Source: Gloeobacter morelensis MG652769 (GTDB taxonomy: Bacteria > Cyanobacteriota > Cyanobacteriia > Gloeobacterales > Gloeobacteraceae). From it: a stretch of DNA of 64,000 nucleotides. The notes under the pieces were generated by a model that worked only from the letters and a program-made list of their open reading frames with translations, made no database searches and was not told the DNA's origin. Below are positions 37,710 to 44,269 of the stretch, one piece after another. Each line of letters begins with the position of its first letter. Positions within the stretch are counted from its first letter, which is position 1. The stretch is taken from assembly GCF_021018745.1 (NCBI RefSeq), contig NZ_CP063845.1, positions 1,054,001-1,118,000 on the forward strand, read 5' to 3'. The position numbers were made by a program, and so were the translations under genes.

Positions 37710-38264
37710 TTACCCGGGCGATGCGAAGCTGGGGGAGCGCAACAGGGCCGCCGCCTCGTCGCACCACGCCACCCAGTCCGCTTCATAGCGCAGCCCGCGC
37801 TTGAGCGAAAGGTAGCCGAAGCGCTTCTCGATCGGTATGGCGCTCAGATCGCTGAAGTGCTCCCGCTCAATCTGCCGGTAGTATGCGAGCTTCTCGGCGT
37901 GCAGGGCCTTGCGCCTTTCGATATCGGCGATGAGCACCTCCGGGGAGGTGAGATAACCCGCGAAGGTTTTGACCAGCATGTCTTCGCGCACTGCGCACGG
38001 CTCGCTCGGCTCGGCCATCCACTCAGAAAGCCAGCGCTTGCCCGCCTCCGTCAGTTCGTAGAGCTTTTTGTTGGGCCGTCCTTCCTGGGCCACCAGATCC
38101 GCGTGCACGAAGCGGCGCTCCTCAAGCGCCGCCAGTTCCCGGTAAATCTGCTGGTGGGTCGCTTTCCAGAAACACCCCACCGAGCCTTCGAATTCTTTTG
38201 TCAACTCGTAACCGCTGAAGGAGCGGTCCGCCAGCAGTGCCAGTATCGCGTGCGCCAGTGCCAT
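37710..38264 (-). CDS. PadR family transcriptional regulator
   Basis: 184 residues. The winged helix is ILALLADRSFSGYELTKEFEGSVGCFWKATHQQIYRELAALEERRFV (about 7-54, in short blocks), followed by KKLYELTEAGKRWLSEWM and a C-terminal Vir/AphA-type helical dimerisation domain of about 90 residues. The length fits the two-domain PadR-s1 type. It is followed by the glycosyltransferase gene and faces devBCA across 123 bp that contain three matching inverted repeats, its probable operators. Confidence 0.92.
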   Translation of the reverse strand: MALAHAILALLADRSFSGYELTKEFEGSVGCFWKATHQQIYRELAALEERRFVHADLVAQEGRPNKKLYELTEAGKRWLSEWMAEPSEPCAVREDMLVKTFAGYLTSPEVLIADIERRKALHAEKLAYYRQIEREHFSDLSAIPIEKRFGYLSLKRGLRYEADWVAWCDEAAALLRSPSFASPG

Positions 38265-38283: not shown

Positions 38284-38350
38284 TTGACTTATGCAAATTG
38301 TTGCATTTAAACTGCCAATATGCAACGAGTTGCACTGCAGCAAATTGCAG
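38284..38350. promoter_or_regulatory. Promoter with three matching inverted repeats (probable PadR operators)
   Basis: Site 1 (38291-38306) is ATGCAA-N4-TTGCAT. Site 2 (38320-38335) is ATGCAA-N4-TTGCAC. Site 3 (38335-38350) is CTGCAG-N4-TTGCAG. All have the same 6-4-6 design. A TTGACT hexamer (38284-38289) lies directly before site 1 and TTTAAA (38306-38311) directly after, so site 1 would fill the spacer of a devB promoter and binding there would block RNA polymerase. Confidence 0.7.
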
Positions 38351-38387: not shown

Positions 38388-39485
38388 ATGGCAACTCTCA
38401 GTCGGTTTCCAGGCCAGGTAGCGAGCCGGTGGCGGGTGTTCTTGGCGATCGCTGCCGCAGTAGGCGGCGGGACGCTGCTGTTCTATGGTCTTTCGGCGCG
38501 GCAGCCGGAGGCGGCGCCGGTCGTCATGGCGCCGTCCGCACCACTGTCGCGGACGGTGGTCGCGTCGGGGCGGCTCGAACCGGAGGGCGAGGTGGTCCGC
38601 CTGGCAGCACCCACGGCCTTCGAGGCGACGCGGCTGGAGAAGCTGTTGGTGCGCGAAGGAGACCGGGTCAAAGCCGGGCAGGTGGTGGCGGTGCTCGATC
38701 GGCGGGGCCGCTACGCGGCGGCGGTCGCCGAGGCCCGCTCCCGGCTGAGGGTGGCCCAGGCGCGGCTGGCGCAGGTGCGCGCCGGGGCAAAAGGCGGCGA
38801 GCTTGCGGCGCAGCGCGCCGGGGTCGAGCGGCTGGCGGGTGAACTGGAGATTGCCCGCGCCGAGTGGGAGCGCTACGCAGCGCTGGAGCGCGCTGGGGCG
38901 GTTTCTGCCTCCGCCCTCGACAGCAAGCGCCTGGCGGTGCGCACCCTCGAAGGGCAGCTGGCCCAGGCCCGCCACGCCCTGGTCGCCACCGCCGAGGTGC
39001 GTCCCACCGATGTGCTCGAAGCCCAGGCACAGATCGAGCAGGCGCGCTCGGCGCAGGCGCGGGCCGAGGCGGATCTCGAAGTGGCCTACGTGCGTGCCCT
39101 GGCGGACGGCCAGGTGCTCAAGATCCACGCCTGGCCGGGCGAAGTGATTGGTCCTGAGGGCATCGCCGAGGTGGGCCGCACCGACCGGATGTTCGCGGTG
39201 GCCGAGGTGTACGAGACAGAGATAGGCCGGGTGCGCCCGGGGCAGCGGGCGCGGATCACCAGTGCCAACGGTGCTTTCGCTGGTCCCCTGGGCGGCACGG
39301 TGGATCAGGTGGGCCGGATCATCGCCAAAAAGGACGTGCTCAACACCGACCCCGCCGCCGACATCGACGCGCGCGTAGTCGAGGTCAAAATTCGTCTGGA
39401 CCCGGCGGACGGTCGCCGGGTGAGCGGTCTGACCAACCTGCAGGTGGATGTGACCATCGAGCCGAATCGGAGAGGACAACCATGA
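38388..39485 (+). CDS. devB: DevB-type membrane fusion protein of an ABC exporter
   Basis: 365 residues. An N-terminal transmembrane anchor (about 16-37, VFLAIAAAVGGGTLLFYGL) and the HlyD/DevB layout: a barrel segment (TVVASGRLEPEGEVVRLAAP), lipoyl half-motif (VREGDRVKAGQVVAVLD), a long Ala/Arg/Glu coiled-coil hairpin (about 105-225), a second lipoyl half (ALADGQVLKIHAWPGEVIG) and a beta-barrel. It bridges the inner-membrane transporter to a TolC-type channel. The stop overlaps devC by four bases. Confidence 0.9.
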   Translation: MATLSRFPGQVASRWRVFLAIAAAVGGGTLLFYGLSARQPEAAPVVMAPSAPLSRTVVASGRLEPEGEVVRLAAPTAFEATRLEKLLVREGDRVKAGQVVAVLDRRGRYAAAVAEARSRLRVAQARLAQVRAGAKGGELAAQRAGVERLAGELEIARAEWERYAALERAGAVSASALDSKRLAVRTLEGQLAQARHALVATAEVRPTDVLEAQAQIEQARSAQARAEADLEVAYVRALADGQVLKIHAWPGEVIGPEGIAEVGRTDRMFAVAEVYETEIGRVRPGQRARITSANGAFAGPLGGTVDQVGRIIAKKDVLNTDPAADIDARVVEVKIRLDPADGRRVSGLTNLQVDVTIEPNRRGQP

Positions 39486-40633
39486 AGCTGCCCCTCGCCT
39501 GGTTGCAACTGACCCGCGAGCGGGTGCGGCTGCTGGTCGCCGTGGCCGGCATCGGCTTCGCGGTGATCTTGATGTTTTTGCAGCTCGGTTTTCGTGCCGC
39601 CCTGTTCGACGGTGCGGTGCGATTGCACGCAAGTTTCGAAGCGGACATCTTTTTGATCGGTCCCAAATCGAGTGCGCTGGTGAGTATGCAAAGTTTCTCG
39701 CAGCGGCGGCTCTATCAGGCGATGGCCGTACCGGGGGTGGCGGGGGCCAGTCCCGTCTATCTGGGCTTCGGCCGCTTTCGCAACCCCGAGACCAACGAGA
39801 CGCGCGGCATTTTTGCAGTGGGCTTCAATCCGGGCGAGCCGGTCTTTCGCCTGGGCGAGGTGAACCGCCAACTGGCTTCGATCCGCAAACCCGACACGGT
39901 GCTCTTTGATCGGGCCTCGCGCAGCGAGTACGGACCGATTGCCGCGCGCTACACCGGCGGCAAGTCCATCGTCACCGAGGTCAACGACCGGCGGGTGCGG
40001 GTGGGGGGCCTCTTTCAGATGGGTACTTCCTTTGCCATTAACGGCACCCTGATTACCAGCGACCTTAATTTCTTGCGCCTGTTTGGCGAGCGCAGCAAGG
40101 GCCTGGTGGATCTGGGACTGGTGCGCCTCGCCCCCGGTGCCGACCCGCAGCAGGTCCAAGCCGATTTGCGCGCTGCGCTGCCCGCCGATGTGCGCGTGCT
40201 GTCGCGCCAGGAATATATGAACTTCGAAAAAGATTACTGGAACCGTAGTACGCCCATCGGCTACATCTTTGCCCTCGGTGCGGCAATGGGTTTCATCGTG
40301 GGTACCATCATCGTCTACCAGATTCTCTATACCGACGTGAGCGATCACCTGGCCGAGTACGCGACGCTCAAGGCGATCGGCTACACCAACGGCTACCTGC
40401 TCGGTGTGGTCTTCCAGGAAGCCTTCTTACTGTCGCTTTTGGGCTTTATTCCCGGCTTTGCCATCTCTCTGGGTCTGTACGATTTGACGCGGGGGGCGAC
40501 GCTGTTGCCGCTGGCGATGGACCCGCTGCGCGCAGCGATTATCTTCGCGCTCACGGTGCTGATGTGCGCCCTTTCCGGTGCCATCGCCGTGCGCCGCTTG
40601 CGCTCCGCCGATCCGGCCGAAATCTTCGCCTAA
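39482..40633 (+). CDS. devC: DevC-type ABC exporter permease
   Basis: 383 residues of the FtsX/MacB fold. TM1 (about 17-38, LVAVAGIGFAVILMFLQLGF) is followed by a large periplasmic domain and three C-terminal helices (about 258-280, 305-330, 345-370). The DevC-specific N-terminus is PLAWLQLTRERVRLLVAVAG. It is translationally coupled to devB and followed 22 bp later by the ATPase, completing a DevBCA tripartite exporter. Confidence 0.9.
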   Translation: MKLPLAWLQLTRERVRLLVAVAGIGFAVILMFLQLGFRAALFDGAVRLHASFEADIFLIGPKSSALVSMQSFSQRRLYQAMAVPGVAGASPVYLGFGRFRNPETNETRGIFAVGFNPGEPVFRLGEVNRQLASIRKPDTVLFDRASRSEYGPIAARYTGGKSIVTEVNDRRVRVGGLFQMGTSFAINGTLITSDLNFLRLFGERSKGLVDLGLVRLAPGADPQQVQADLRAALPADVRVLSRQEYMNFEKDYWNRSTPIGYIFALGAAMGFIVGTIIVYQILYTDVSDHLAEYATLKAIGYTNGYLLGVVFQEAFLLSLLGFIPGFAISLGLYDLTRGATLLPLAMDPLRAAIIFALTVLMCALSGAIAVRRLRSADPAEIFA

Positions 40634-40655
40634 ACCTACCTCGGAGCACCGAACC

Positions 40656-41354
40656 ATGTCTCAGACGCCCGTGATTGCCATCCGCCGGCTCGACCACACC
40701 TTCGGCCAAGGCGCCCTCGAGCGCCGGGTACTCTCGGACATCGATCTCACCATCGCCGCGGGGGAGCTGGTGATCCTCACCGGCCCTTCCGGTTCCGGCA
40801 AGACGACGCTGCTCACGCTGATTGGCGCGCTGCGCTCCCCCCAGACGGGCAGTCTGCGGGTGCTCGGCCAGGAGTTGTGCGGAGCGAGCGAAGCGGATCT
40901 GGTGGCCATCCGCCGCAACATCGGCTATATCTTCCAGTCCCACAATTTGCTCGGTTTTCTGACCGCGCGCCAGAACGTGCAGATGGCGGCGGAGCTGAGC
41001 GCCGGCAGCCCTGCCGAGGCCCGCGCCCTCTCAGAAGCAATCCTGGTAGCGGTGGGTCTAAGCGAGCGGCTCGATTACTATCCGGAGAACCTTTCCGGTG
41101 GCCAGAAGCAGCGCGTCGCTATCGCCCGCGCCCTGGTAAACCGGCCCTTCCTGGTCTTGGCCGACGAACCGACCGCCGCCCTCGACAGCAAGTCCGGCCG
41201 CGAGGTGGTGGAATTGATGCAGCGGCTGGCCGCCGATCAAGGCTGCGCCATCTTGATGGTCACCCACGACAGCCGCATCCTCGATGTCGCCACCCGCACC
41301 GTGCACATGGAAGACGGCCGGCTGGTGCAGAGCGAAACCGCAGTGCGCATTTGA
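40656..41354 (+). CDS. devA: DevA-type ABC exporter ATPase
   Basis: 232 residues from MSQTPVIAIRRLDHTFGQG. Walker A is GPSGSGKTTLL (about 46), the Q-loop is YIFQSHNLL, the signature is LSGGQKQRVAIARAL (about 142) and Walker B is LVLADEPTAALD, followed by VTHDSRIL with the switch His. It belongs to the MacB/LolD/DevA group. In heterocyst-forming relatives DevBCA exports heterocyst glycolipids. Here the substrate is unknown. Its last 100 bp are duplicated at 42274-42378. Confidence 0.93.
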   Translation: MSQTPVIAIRRLDHTFGQGALERRVLSDIDLTIAAGELVILTGPSGSGKTTLLTLIGALRSPQTGSLRVLGQELCGASEADLVAIRRNIGYIFQSHNLLGFLTARQNVQMAAELSAGSPAEARALSEAILVAVGLSERLDYYPENLSGGQKQRVAIARALVNRPFLVLADEPTAALDSKSGREVVELMQRLAADQGCAILMVTHDSRILDVATRTVHMEDGRLVQSETAVRI

Positions 41355-41365
41355 GGGTGTACGGT

Positions 41366-41725
41366 CTACCAGTTGTAGTGGTTCAGAGCGTAGAACTGCT
41401 GTTGTAGGTCTATCCCAAGCTCTTCGAGATTGGCGATGGCTCTGACAATTGCAGGACGGCTCATCTGCTTTTGCGGATCCGCATCCCGATAAATTGCCAG
41501 GATGCCCAAATGCGACGGGTTGGCTTGGTGCAGCCTGAAGAAGTCGGAGCAGTTGTGCGTCAGTAGTGTGCGTCGCGTCGTTATTGCGTATTCGAATACG
41601 ATTGCATCCGGCTTACCGATCAATCCTGCCTCCTGCGGGGTCAAGACGTCGTGGCCGGCAGCCCTTAACAACTCAACCAGACGCCATGCCTGGGTGTCTT
41701 CATCGATGAGCAGGCGCAGGCTCAA
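41366..41725 (-). CDS. DUF5615 family PIN-like protein (probable toxin)
   Basis: 119 residues. The PIN-like start LRLLIDEDTQAW carries the first acidic pair. LLRAAGHDVLTPQEAGLIGKPDAIVFEYA and RRTLLTHNCSDFFRLH contain the other conserved acidic and Asn/Asp positions of the DUF5615 family. A nuclease toxin role is inferred from pairing: the upstream DUF433-type gene overlaps it by 26 bp. It lies tail to tail with devA, 11 bp apart. Confidence 0.78.
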   Translation of the reverse strand: MSLRLLIDEDTQAWRLVELLRAAGHDVLTPQEAGLIGKPDAIVFEYAITTRRTLLTHNCSDFFRLHQANPSHLGILAIYRDADPQKQMSRPAIVRAIANLEELGIDLQQQFYALNHYNW

Positions 41726-42212
41726 GGGCGATTCCTTCCTGTTCCAGCAAGCGGCGTTCCTCGTCCGCTTCCATTTTCAGAAGCTCCCTATGGCTCTCGC
41801 AGTAGAGGACGATTTCCTGAACGGTAGCTATGGGCAGATCAAAATCCTGTGCCGCTTCCTCGATGGACAGCCCATTAGCGTGCATGTCGTACCAGACGGT
41901 CGAAGCAAGCAAGCGCCGCCCTTTGACATACAGCTGTTTTCGCCAGGCATGGGGGCGGCCGACAAGATACTGCCATTGCAAACCCGCAGGCGGCTCCAGT
42001 TCAGCAATGATCACCCGGATCGCTTCCGCTTCTCCCGTCAGGCTCAGCCTGTAACCTTTCTGGAGGTAATCTTGAAGCACGGCTACCACTGCGACGGATC
42101 GCAGGATGGCCTCTTTGGCCGTCCCGGCACCCAGAGCTATGCGCACAAACTCGATCTGCGCGGCCTGCTCCGGCGTTACGTCGAAGTTTTGCCTTTTGGT
42201 GTCCGGTTTCAT
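41700..42212 (-). CDS. DUF433-type protein (probable antitoxin) with N-terminal extension
   Basis: 170 residues. The C-terminal two thirds show the DUF433 helix-turn-helix: KGRRLLASTVWYDMHANGLSIEEAAQDFDLPIATVQEIVLYCE (about 95-140, in short blocks). The first 80 residues (VTPEQAAQIEFVRIALGAGTAKEAILRSVAVVAVL) are an extra, possibly DNA-binding, module not present in the shortest DUF433 proteins. It overlaps the DUF5615 gene, the typical gene order of this pair. Probably DNA-binding and autoregulatory. Confidence 0.72.
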   Translation of the reverse strand: MKPDTKRQNFDVTPEQAAQIEFVRIALGAGTAKEAILRSVAVVAVLQDYLQKGYRLSLTGEAEAIRVIIAELEPPAGLQWQYLVGRPHAWRKQLYVKGRRLLASTVWYDMHANGLSIEEAAQDFDLPIATVQEIVLYCESHRELLKMEADEERRLLEQEGIALEPAPAHR

Positions 42213-42273: not shown

Positions 42274-42378
42274 CGACTCAAGGTTGCGCCATCTTGATGG
42301 TCACCCACGGCAGCCGCGTCCTCGATGTCGCCACCCGCACTGTGCCCATGGAAGACGGACGGCTGGTGCAGAGCGAAA
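42274..42378 (+). repeat. Diverged duplicate of the devA 3' end
   Basis: About 100 bp match devA 41247-41336 with roughly five mismatches (for example GGCAGC for GACAGC, GTCCTC for ATCCTC). The match ends exactly at the IS1 left terminus after GAGCGAAA. The rest of the gene copy is absent. Confidence 0.85.
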
Positions 42379-42950: not shown

Positions 42951-43851
42951 TCATCGTACAGGTTGATGCCCGAGGGGCGACAACGGAGCCCCGACGGCAG
43001 CGAGCTGTTGCAGGAACTCCATCGGGCTTGCCCCTCCCAAAGCACTGTGCGGCCGGTAGGTGTTGTAATCTAGCCGCCATGCCTCAATGGTCCGCCGTGC
43101 GTCCGGTACGTTCAGGAAATAGTGCGCGTTGAGGCATTCATCCCGGAATTTGCCGTTGAAACTTTCGATGTGCGGCTTGTCGGTCGGCTTGCCCGGACGG
43201 GTGAAGGCGATGCGCACGCCACGTCGGGCGGCCCACTCGGCCAGCGTTCGGCAGACGAACTCCGGTCCGTTGTCCACCAGCAATTGCTCGGGCAACTGCC
43301 GCCGGGTGGCCAGACTCTCCAGCACCCGCACGACCCGCGCTGAAGGCAAAGAGGTATCCACTTCTATCTGTGGGCACTCCCGGCTGTAGATATCCACGAT
43401 TGTCAGGGTCCGCAGTTTGCGTCCGTCCGCTAAGGCATCCTCGACAAAGTCCAGGCTCCATACCTGATTGGGACGTTCCAAGCCAGGCACCTCCGGCCGC
43501 TCGCACGGCCGGGTGCGGGGCTTACGCTTTTTTGGGCGCACCAGGGTCGTTGGGGCAACGACCCACCAGCAGTCCCTCCCTGGTGCACAGCCGGTAGATT
43601 TTTTTGGCGTTGACGAGCGTGCCTTCGCGCCTCAGCAGCAGCGTCAGCCGTCGATAGCCGTAACGTGGGCGCTCGGCGGCCAACTGCTTCAATCGCTCGA
43701 CAAGCACCGGGTCGTCCTTACGGCGCAGGAGAAGACGGGCGGTGGAACGATGCAAGCCCAGCAGCCGACAGGCCCGCCTCTGGGAGAACTGCAGGTCGGT
43801 CTGCAGGAAGGCGACGGCCTGACGTTTGGCCGCTGGGCTCAGAATTTTTTT
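42951..43851 (-). CDS. IS3 OrfB, copy B, with the same internal -1 frameshift
   Basis: The same integrase as copy A, again split at the A6 run (T6 on plus at 43528-43533). The catalytic segments WSLDFVEDAL, LLVDNGPEF and KPHIESFNGKFRDECL are all intact in the second frame. Confidence 0.75.
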
Positions 43852-44105
43852 GACAGCACCGCCTTGAGGGCATGGATGTCGAGGGCCTGGTCGGCAACGA
43901 TTTGTTTGAGCTTGCGGTTTTCTTCCTCCAGGTCTTTGAGGCGTTGGGCTTCGGAGATTTCCATGCCGCCGTACTTGGCTTTCCAGCGGTAGTAGGTCTG
44001 CTCGCTGATACCATGCCTGCGGCAAAGTTCTGCCACGTTCGCTCCAGCCAGCCCCTCGTTGAGGATGGCAATCATCTGCTCGGTGGTGAACCGACTTTTC
44101 TTCAT
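43839..44105 (-). CDS. IS3 OrfA, copy B
   Basis: Same 88-residue helix-turn-helix protein as at 5725-5991 (MKKSRFTTEQMIAIL start). It runs into the A7 recoding run (T7 on plus at 43845-43851) shared with OrfB. Confidence 0.85.
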   Translation of the reverse strand: MKKSRFTTEQMIAILNEGLAGANVAELCRRHGISEQTYYRWKAKYGGMEISEAQRLKDLEEENRKLKQIVADQALDIHALKAVLSKKF

Positions 44106-44269
44106 GGTCGTCCTCGCGGTGTGGTTCGCCGGAAGACTCACATTCTAAGCGGTTCACTTTTGCGGTCGCACGTCAGTGCTACTCAAAGACGAGAGAGATG
44201 TTAAAACTGTCAGTGCGACTACTGGTACATTATCTGCGGACGGAAATCGTCCCAAGCCCACCTTGACCA

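Follow-up and report, generated by a model that had tools for sequence, protein, structure and literature searches.

The window (the whole 64-kb stretch of DNA analysed here) contains a gene for a PadR-family regulator and, facing away from it, a devBCA exporter operon; the gap of 123 bp between padR and devB holds three 16-bp inverted-repeat sites (S1–S3), each of 6-4-6 layout. The features are as follows.

37710..38264, minus strand: padR, PadR-family regulator of 184 aa
38284..38289, plus strand: TTGACT, −35 hexamer of the predicted devBCA promoter, invariant across 3 genomes
38291..38306, no strand assigned: S1, ATGCAAATTGTTGCAT (ATGCAA-ATTG-TTGCAT), candidate operator in the −35/−10 spacer, 12/12 against the AphA motif
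38308..38313, plus strand: TAAACT, −10 hexamer with an 18-bp spacer from the −35 hexamer, conserved
38320..38335, no strand assigned: S2, ATGCAACGAGTTGCAC (ATGCAA-CGAG-TTGCAC), candidate operator, 11/12
38335..38350, no strand assigned: S3, CTGCAGCAAATTGCAG (CTGCAG-CAAA-TTGCAG), operator-like, 9/12 to ATGCAA-N4-TTGCAT
38388..39485, plus strand: devB, DevB-family membrane fusion protein (TIGR02971)
39482..40633, plus strand: devC, ABC permease (TIGR01185)
40578..41354, plus strand: devA, ABC ATPase (TIGR02982)

The regulator combines an N-terminal winged helix (PF03551, 54.1 bits against a cut-off of 27) with a C-terminal long helical domain (PF10400, Vir_act_alpha_C; 85.1 bits against a cut-off of 22.4), and thus carries both domains, winged helix-turn-helix and Vir_act_alpha_C, of PadR subfamily 1 (AphA/PadR type). 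Its structure model (pLDDT 92) has fold matches to PadR structures and places His37 at the start of the predicted recognition helix (residues 37–49). The devB, devC and devA assignments come from NCBIfam equivalog or subfamily models, with scores of 364 bits (TIGR02971), 534 bits (TIGR01185) and 356 bits (TIGR02982), all above cut-off; since the TIGR02982 domain begins at residue 32, the true start of devA is probably inside the listed ORF. A 101-nt direct repeat of the 3′ part of devA (41237–41337 and 42278–42378, 94% identical) flanks a DUF5615 gene (41366–41725, minus strand) and its upstream partner ORF (41700–42212, minus strand), a toxin–antitoxin-like small pair that may have arrived with the devA-end duplication. 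Pieces of an IS3-type transposase (rve integrase, HTH_Tnp_1) lie downstream of devBCA at 42951–44141 on the minus strand.

The original prediction placed three 6-4-6 inverted repeats with TGCA(A/G)-N4-TTGCA cores between padR and devB, and this is confirmed: all three plus-strand occurrences of the core TGCA[AG]N4TTGCA in the window fall in the intergenic region, and dinucleotide shuffling of this region, repeated 20,000 times, yielded one core in 108 cases and two in none. The spacing is 29 bp for S1–S2 and 15 bp for S2–S3. The equal design ascribed to the three sites holds for their shared layout but not for their strength, S3 matching the full motif least well (9/12) and being conserved in a 14-bp core only. 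Considering that inverted repeats are common and that S1 and S2 are able to pair with each other, the repeats might be structural elements of DNA or RNA, or palindromes that arose by chance, and serve no regulator; we give this scarcely any credence, given the shuffle test, the location of the S1 palindrome within the promoter, before the expected transcript begins, its match to a known operator motif (that of AphA, see below) and the recurrence of such palindromes upstream of diverse genes.

For devBCA the promoter scanner chose TTGACT-18-TAAACT, which is the likely promoter of the operon. It had been claimed that S1 exactly fills the spacer between TTGACT and TTTAAA; S1 does sit inside the −35/−10 spacer, but the better −10 hexamer is TAAACT, and TTTAAA was rejected as a −10 box, since the sister genomes read CTAAACT and so keep TAAACT but not TTTAAA. 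For padR itself, no promoter could be assigned with confidence.

Absence of the sites from relatives with the same genes had been set down as a mark against the operators; the padR–devB loci of two sister genomes keep them, with S1 unchanged, the spacing identical, differences in S2 confined to its spacer and final base, and S3 invariant in its 14-bp core across the 3 genomes. Same-genus relatives include a genome whose PadR is 95% identical, and the same locus is present in an Aphanocapsa lilacina record. The similarity between these relatives extends over the entire intergenic region, so that conservation among them is, taken alone, modest evidence that the sites serve as operators.

Related palindromes and promoter embedding across padR homologues

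In a de novo search that prescribed no sequence, we looked upstream of 107 padR homologues for perfect inverted repeats with arms 0–12 bases apart, the PadR group being present in about half of the cyanobacterial genomes sampled (144/291). The top repeats were ATGCA-N6-TGCAT (30 loci) and TGCAA-N4-TTGCA (28), followed by the variants ATTCA-N6-TGAAT (16), TTCAA-N4-TTGAA (11) and ACTCA-N6-TGAGT (9), as compared with at most 3 loci in the shuffled controls shown for this search. A site scoring at least 10/12 to the degenerate half-site A[TC][GT]CAA was found at 97 of the 107 loci, some 10–15% of the homologues being without a recognizable site, and the commonest inter-site distances among the padR loci were 32, 16 and 29 bp. 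S1 is identical to the motif established by ChIP-seq for AphA, 5′-ATGCAA-N4-TTGCAT-3′ (PMC6855506), and AphA is a relative of the window PadR by both sequence profile and fold.

In 64 loci the operator lies within a core promoter directed away from padR and in 2 within one directed towards it, while flank shuffling leads one to expect 2.2 embedded loci; in a second set of 103 further loci, previously unused, the numbers were 73 and 0. The operator begins about one base past a TTGACA-like −35 hexamer and extends into a TATAAT-like −10 hexamer, giving the layout TTGACA-T-[operator]-ATAAT, as exemplified by TTGACATATGCAAACAGTTGCATATAATTT (L030) and TTGACATACTCAACTAATTGAGTATAACCT (L082). Since the operator is situated inside the core promoter of the divergent gene, this geometry argues, at the level of sequence, for repression of that gene.

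At tcpPH, AphA, which shares its motif and domain architecture with the window PadR, is an activator, and PadR might accordingly bind its sites and act mainly as an activator, or both ways, like AphA at some promoters. We regard this as unlikely: a protein bound where S1 lies, inside the −35/−10 spacer, as in the 64 and 73 homologous loci, would normally block polymerase, and many of the embedded promoters are near-consensus and would not need an activator.

Residue 37 and the third base of the half-site

We show that residue 37 (window PadR numbering) accounts for 77% of the G/T variance at half-site position 3 over 94 loci, the runner-up among the 184 PadR columns accounting for 45%. His pairs with G, and Gln or Phe with T: the first set comprised 45 loci with His and G, 3 with His and T, 46 with a non-His residue and T and none with a non-His residue and G (91/94 concordant), and in the second set, made up of new loci from the same clade, the counts in this order were 41, 4, 42 and 0 (83/87 concordant). 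All four exceptions in the second set combine His with T, and the rule is therefore asymmetric. On a tree built without the residue-37 column, the minimum number of changes is 7 for residue 37 and 10 for the site class; only 2 of the independent contrasts are well supported, both of them concordant, which leaves some room for shared ancestry of residue and site class. As an outside check, AphA has His at the equivalent position and a G motif.

We suggest, with somewhat better than even confidence, that residue 37 is a one-residue specificity switch, such that His reads G (ATGCAA) and Gln or Phe accepts T (A(T/C)TCAA), which cyanobacteria would use on a hard-wired TTGACA-T-operator-ATAAT element controlling export and an af470-like monooxygenase.

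The genome encodes eight PadR-domain proteins, one of which is 42% identical to the window PadR and also has His37, and it is conceivable that a different regulator, such as one of the seven other PadR-family proteins, recognizes the sites and that the adjacency of padR is incidental. This appears very improbable to us, given that the motif goes with the padR orthologue at 97 loci, that it covaries with residue 37 of that adjacent protein, and that the nearest paralogue has no motif site upstream of its gene; regulation of this paralogue through the same motif was accordingly rejected.

Outside the cyanobacteria, padR homologues L077, L121 (Spirochaetes MAG records), L129, L132 (Kribbella), L134 (Aquabacterium) and L135 (Cellvibrionales MAG) all have His37 and upstream sites of ATGCAA type; the enzyme genes beside them include an FMN oxidoreductase-like gene in L134 and a FabK/nitronate monooxygenase-like gene in L135.

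Candidate targets and a proposed repressor switch

With one mismatch at most, the full motif occurs at 7 places in the genome (1 for the reversed control), and three promoters only carry conserved site pairs, that of padR–devBCA included. The two further promoters belong to a Monooxy_af470-like gene (PF13826; G000:C1:1018242) and to a gene for a 67-aa predicted membrane protein (G000:C1:4203063/4203092); in three Gloeobacter-group genomes both have sites paired at a distance of 28–29 bp. The promoter of the 67-aa gene (TTGACATATGCAACAATTTGCCTATAAA) has the same operator embedding; the PF13826 promoter of this genome combines a degenerate embedded site (ATGCAATTTGTTGCGC) with a perfect second one. 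Two other proposals were rejected: a large genome-wide regulon, because most of the approximately 40 loose-core strand matches are intragenic or without the outer bases, and cobA/BtuR as a target (L014), because the embedded promoter faces the opposite way, to the 67-aa ORF.

In a fourth genome of the genus, G003, padR has been reduced to a 3′ remnant, both of these target genes are absent, no close devB orthologue is present (best 40% identity), and the motif has only two matches, unpaired and with one mismatch each. The short remnant (L182, G003:C1:2126360-2126461) lies in a repeated stretch and adjoins a glycosyltransferase gene that also comes after padR in the window.

Among 56 loci scanned for divergent neighbours of padR, 14 have a PF13826 gene and 21 a gene for a HlyD-type fusion protein; motif matches and gene neighbourhoods thus converge on one enzyme family (PF13826). 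In G007, of the same order, the af470-like monooxygenase gene is inside the devBCA operon itself, in the order devA-PF13826-devB-devC (about 2690–6310 in L187, G007:C1:3790500-3799500); no operator was found in this operon, and the genome is without a close padR orthologue. RPE65-type carotenoid/stilbene dioxygenases face padR in 4 loci (L067 and three others) and Coq4-like proteins in six, which hints at an isoprenoid, a quinone or a stilbene-like compound as a possible ligand.

Considering the sister-genome conservation, the related palindromes at 97/107 loci, the identity with the AphA motif and the promoter embedding, the proposal that S1–S3 are PadR operators of a repressor switch is supported as far as sequence evidence goes. 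We consider it highly probable that S1–S3 are operators of the adjacent PadR and that this protein represses devBCA, probably together with the two trans targets and until a ligand releases it. We envisage that a PadR dimer binds ATGCAA-N4-TTGCAT and, at S1, would occupy the devBCA −35/−10 spacer and exclude RNA polymerase; S2 and S3 would provide additional, probably co-operative, PadR binding, and S1 is near enough to padR for autoregulation to be possible. In trans, PadR probably represses the Monooxy_af470-like gene and the gene for the 67-aa predicted membrane protein. A small hydrophobic or aromatic compound would probably loosen PadR, so that export and modification are switched on together, and a detoxification/export module under ligand-released repression is our best reading of the locus.

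In the part of the literature searched here, we found no operators of this cyanobacterial PadR group, no residue-37 rule and no link between PadR and DevBCA. Known already are the AphA-type operator and the LmrR-like logic; the specificity rule and the embedded promoter are new. What results for a PadR group found so widely among the sampled cyanobacteria is a testable operator, a promoter architecture and a small regulon, together with a proposed simple rule of protein–DNA recognition that agrees with the AphA motif and from which operators of uncharacterized members can be predicted. Moreover, the link of a DevBCA-type exporter with an af470-like monooxygenase is suggestive of a common detoxification or secondary-metabolite pathway in these early-branching cyanobacteria.

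Comparison with known systems

The closest solved fold is that of Rv1176c from Mycobacterium tuberculosis (8IOI; TM-score 0.89, 37% identity), a protein with another host and other targets. The DevBCA exporters of heterocyst-forming cyanobacteria correspond to the window operon, which matches the DevB, DevC and DevA models, but the window copy is padR-linked and Gloeobacter is not known to form heterocysts. The target of PadR in Bacillus subtilis is the phenolic acid decarboxylase gene. That protein (5X11 operator complex, p-coumarate ligand) shares with the window PadR the family, the architecture, the equivalent His and the outer operator bases ATG...CAT, and differs in the inner bases of its operator (ATGT-N8-ACAT).

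LmrR is not known to carry the long C-terminal domain. This regulator of Lactococcus lactis (PadR-s2), which represses lmrCD, is likewise a PadR-family protein in control of an ABC exporter; however, its operator is of ATGT/ACAT type with an 8–10 bp spacer, and lmrCD encodes a multidrug ABC pump rather than DevBCA. LmrR controls the exporter and its own gene, binding its own operator and the −10/−35 region of its target (PMC5428041), and S1 similarly lies within the −35/−10 spacer of the pump promoter predicted from sequence. AphA of Vibrio cholerae has in common with the window PadR the operator ATGCAA-N4-TTGCAT (PMC6855506), the overall protein architecture (including Vir_act_alpha_C), a recognition-helix His and the use of adjacent paired sites; whereas AphA is a quorum-sensing global regulator, the window PadR adjoins, and probably represses, an export operon, and has its operator inside the core promoter.
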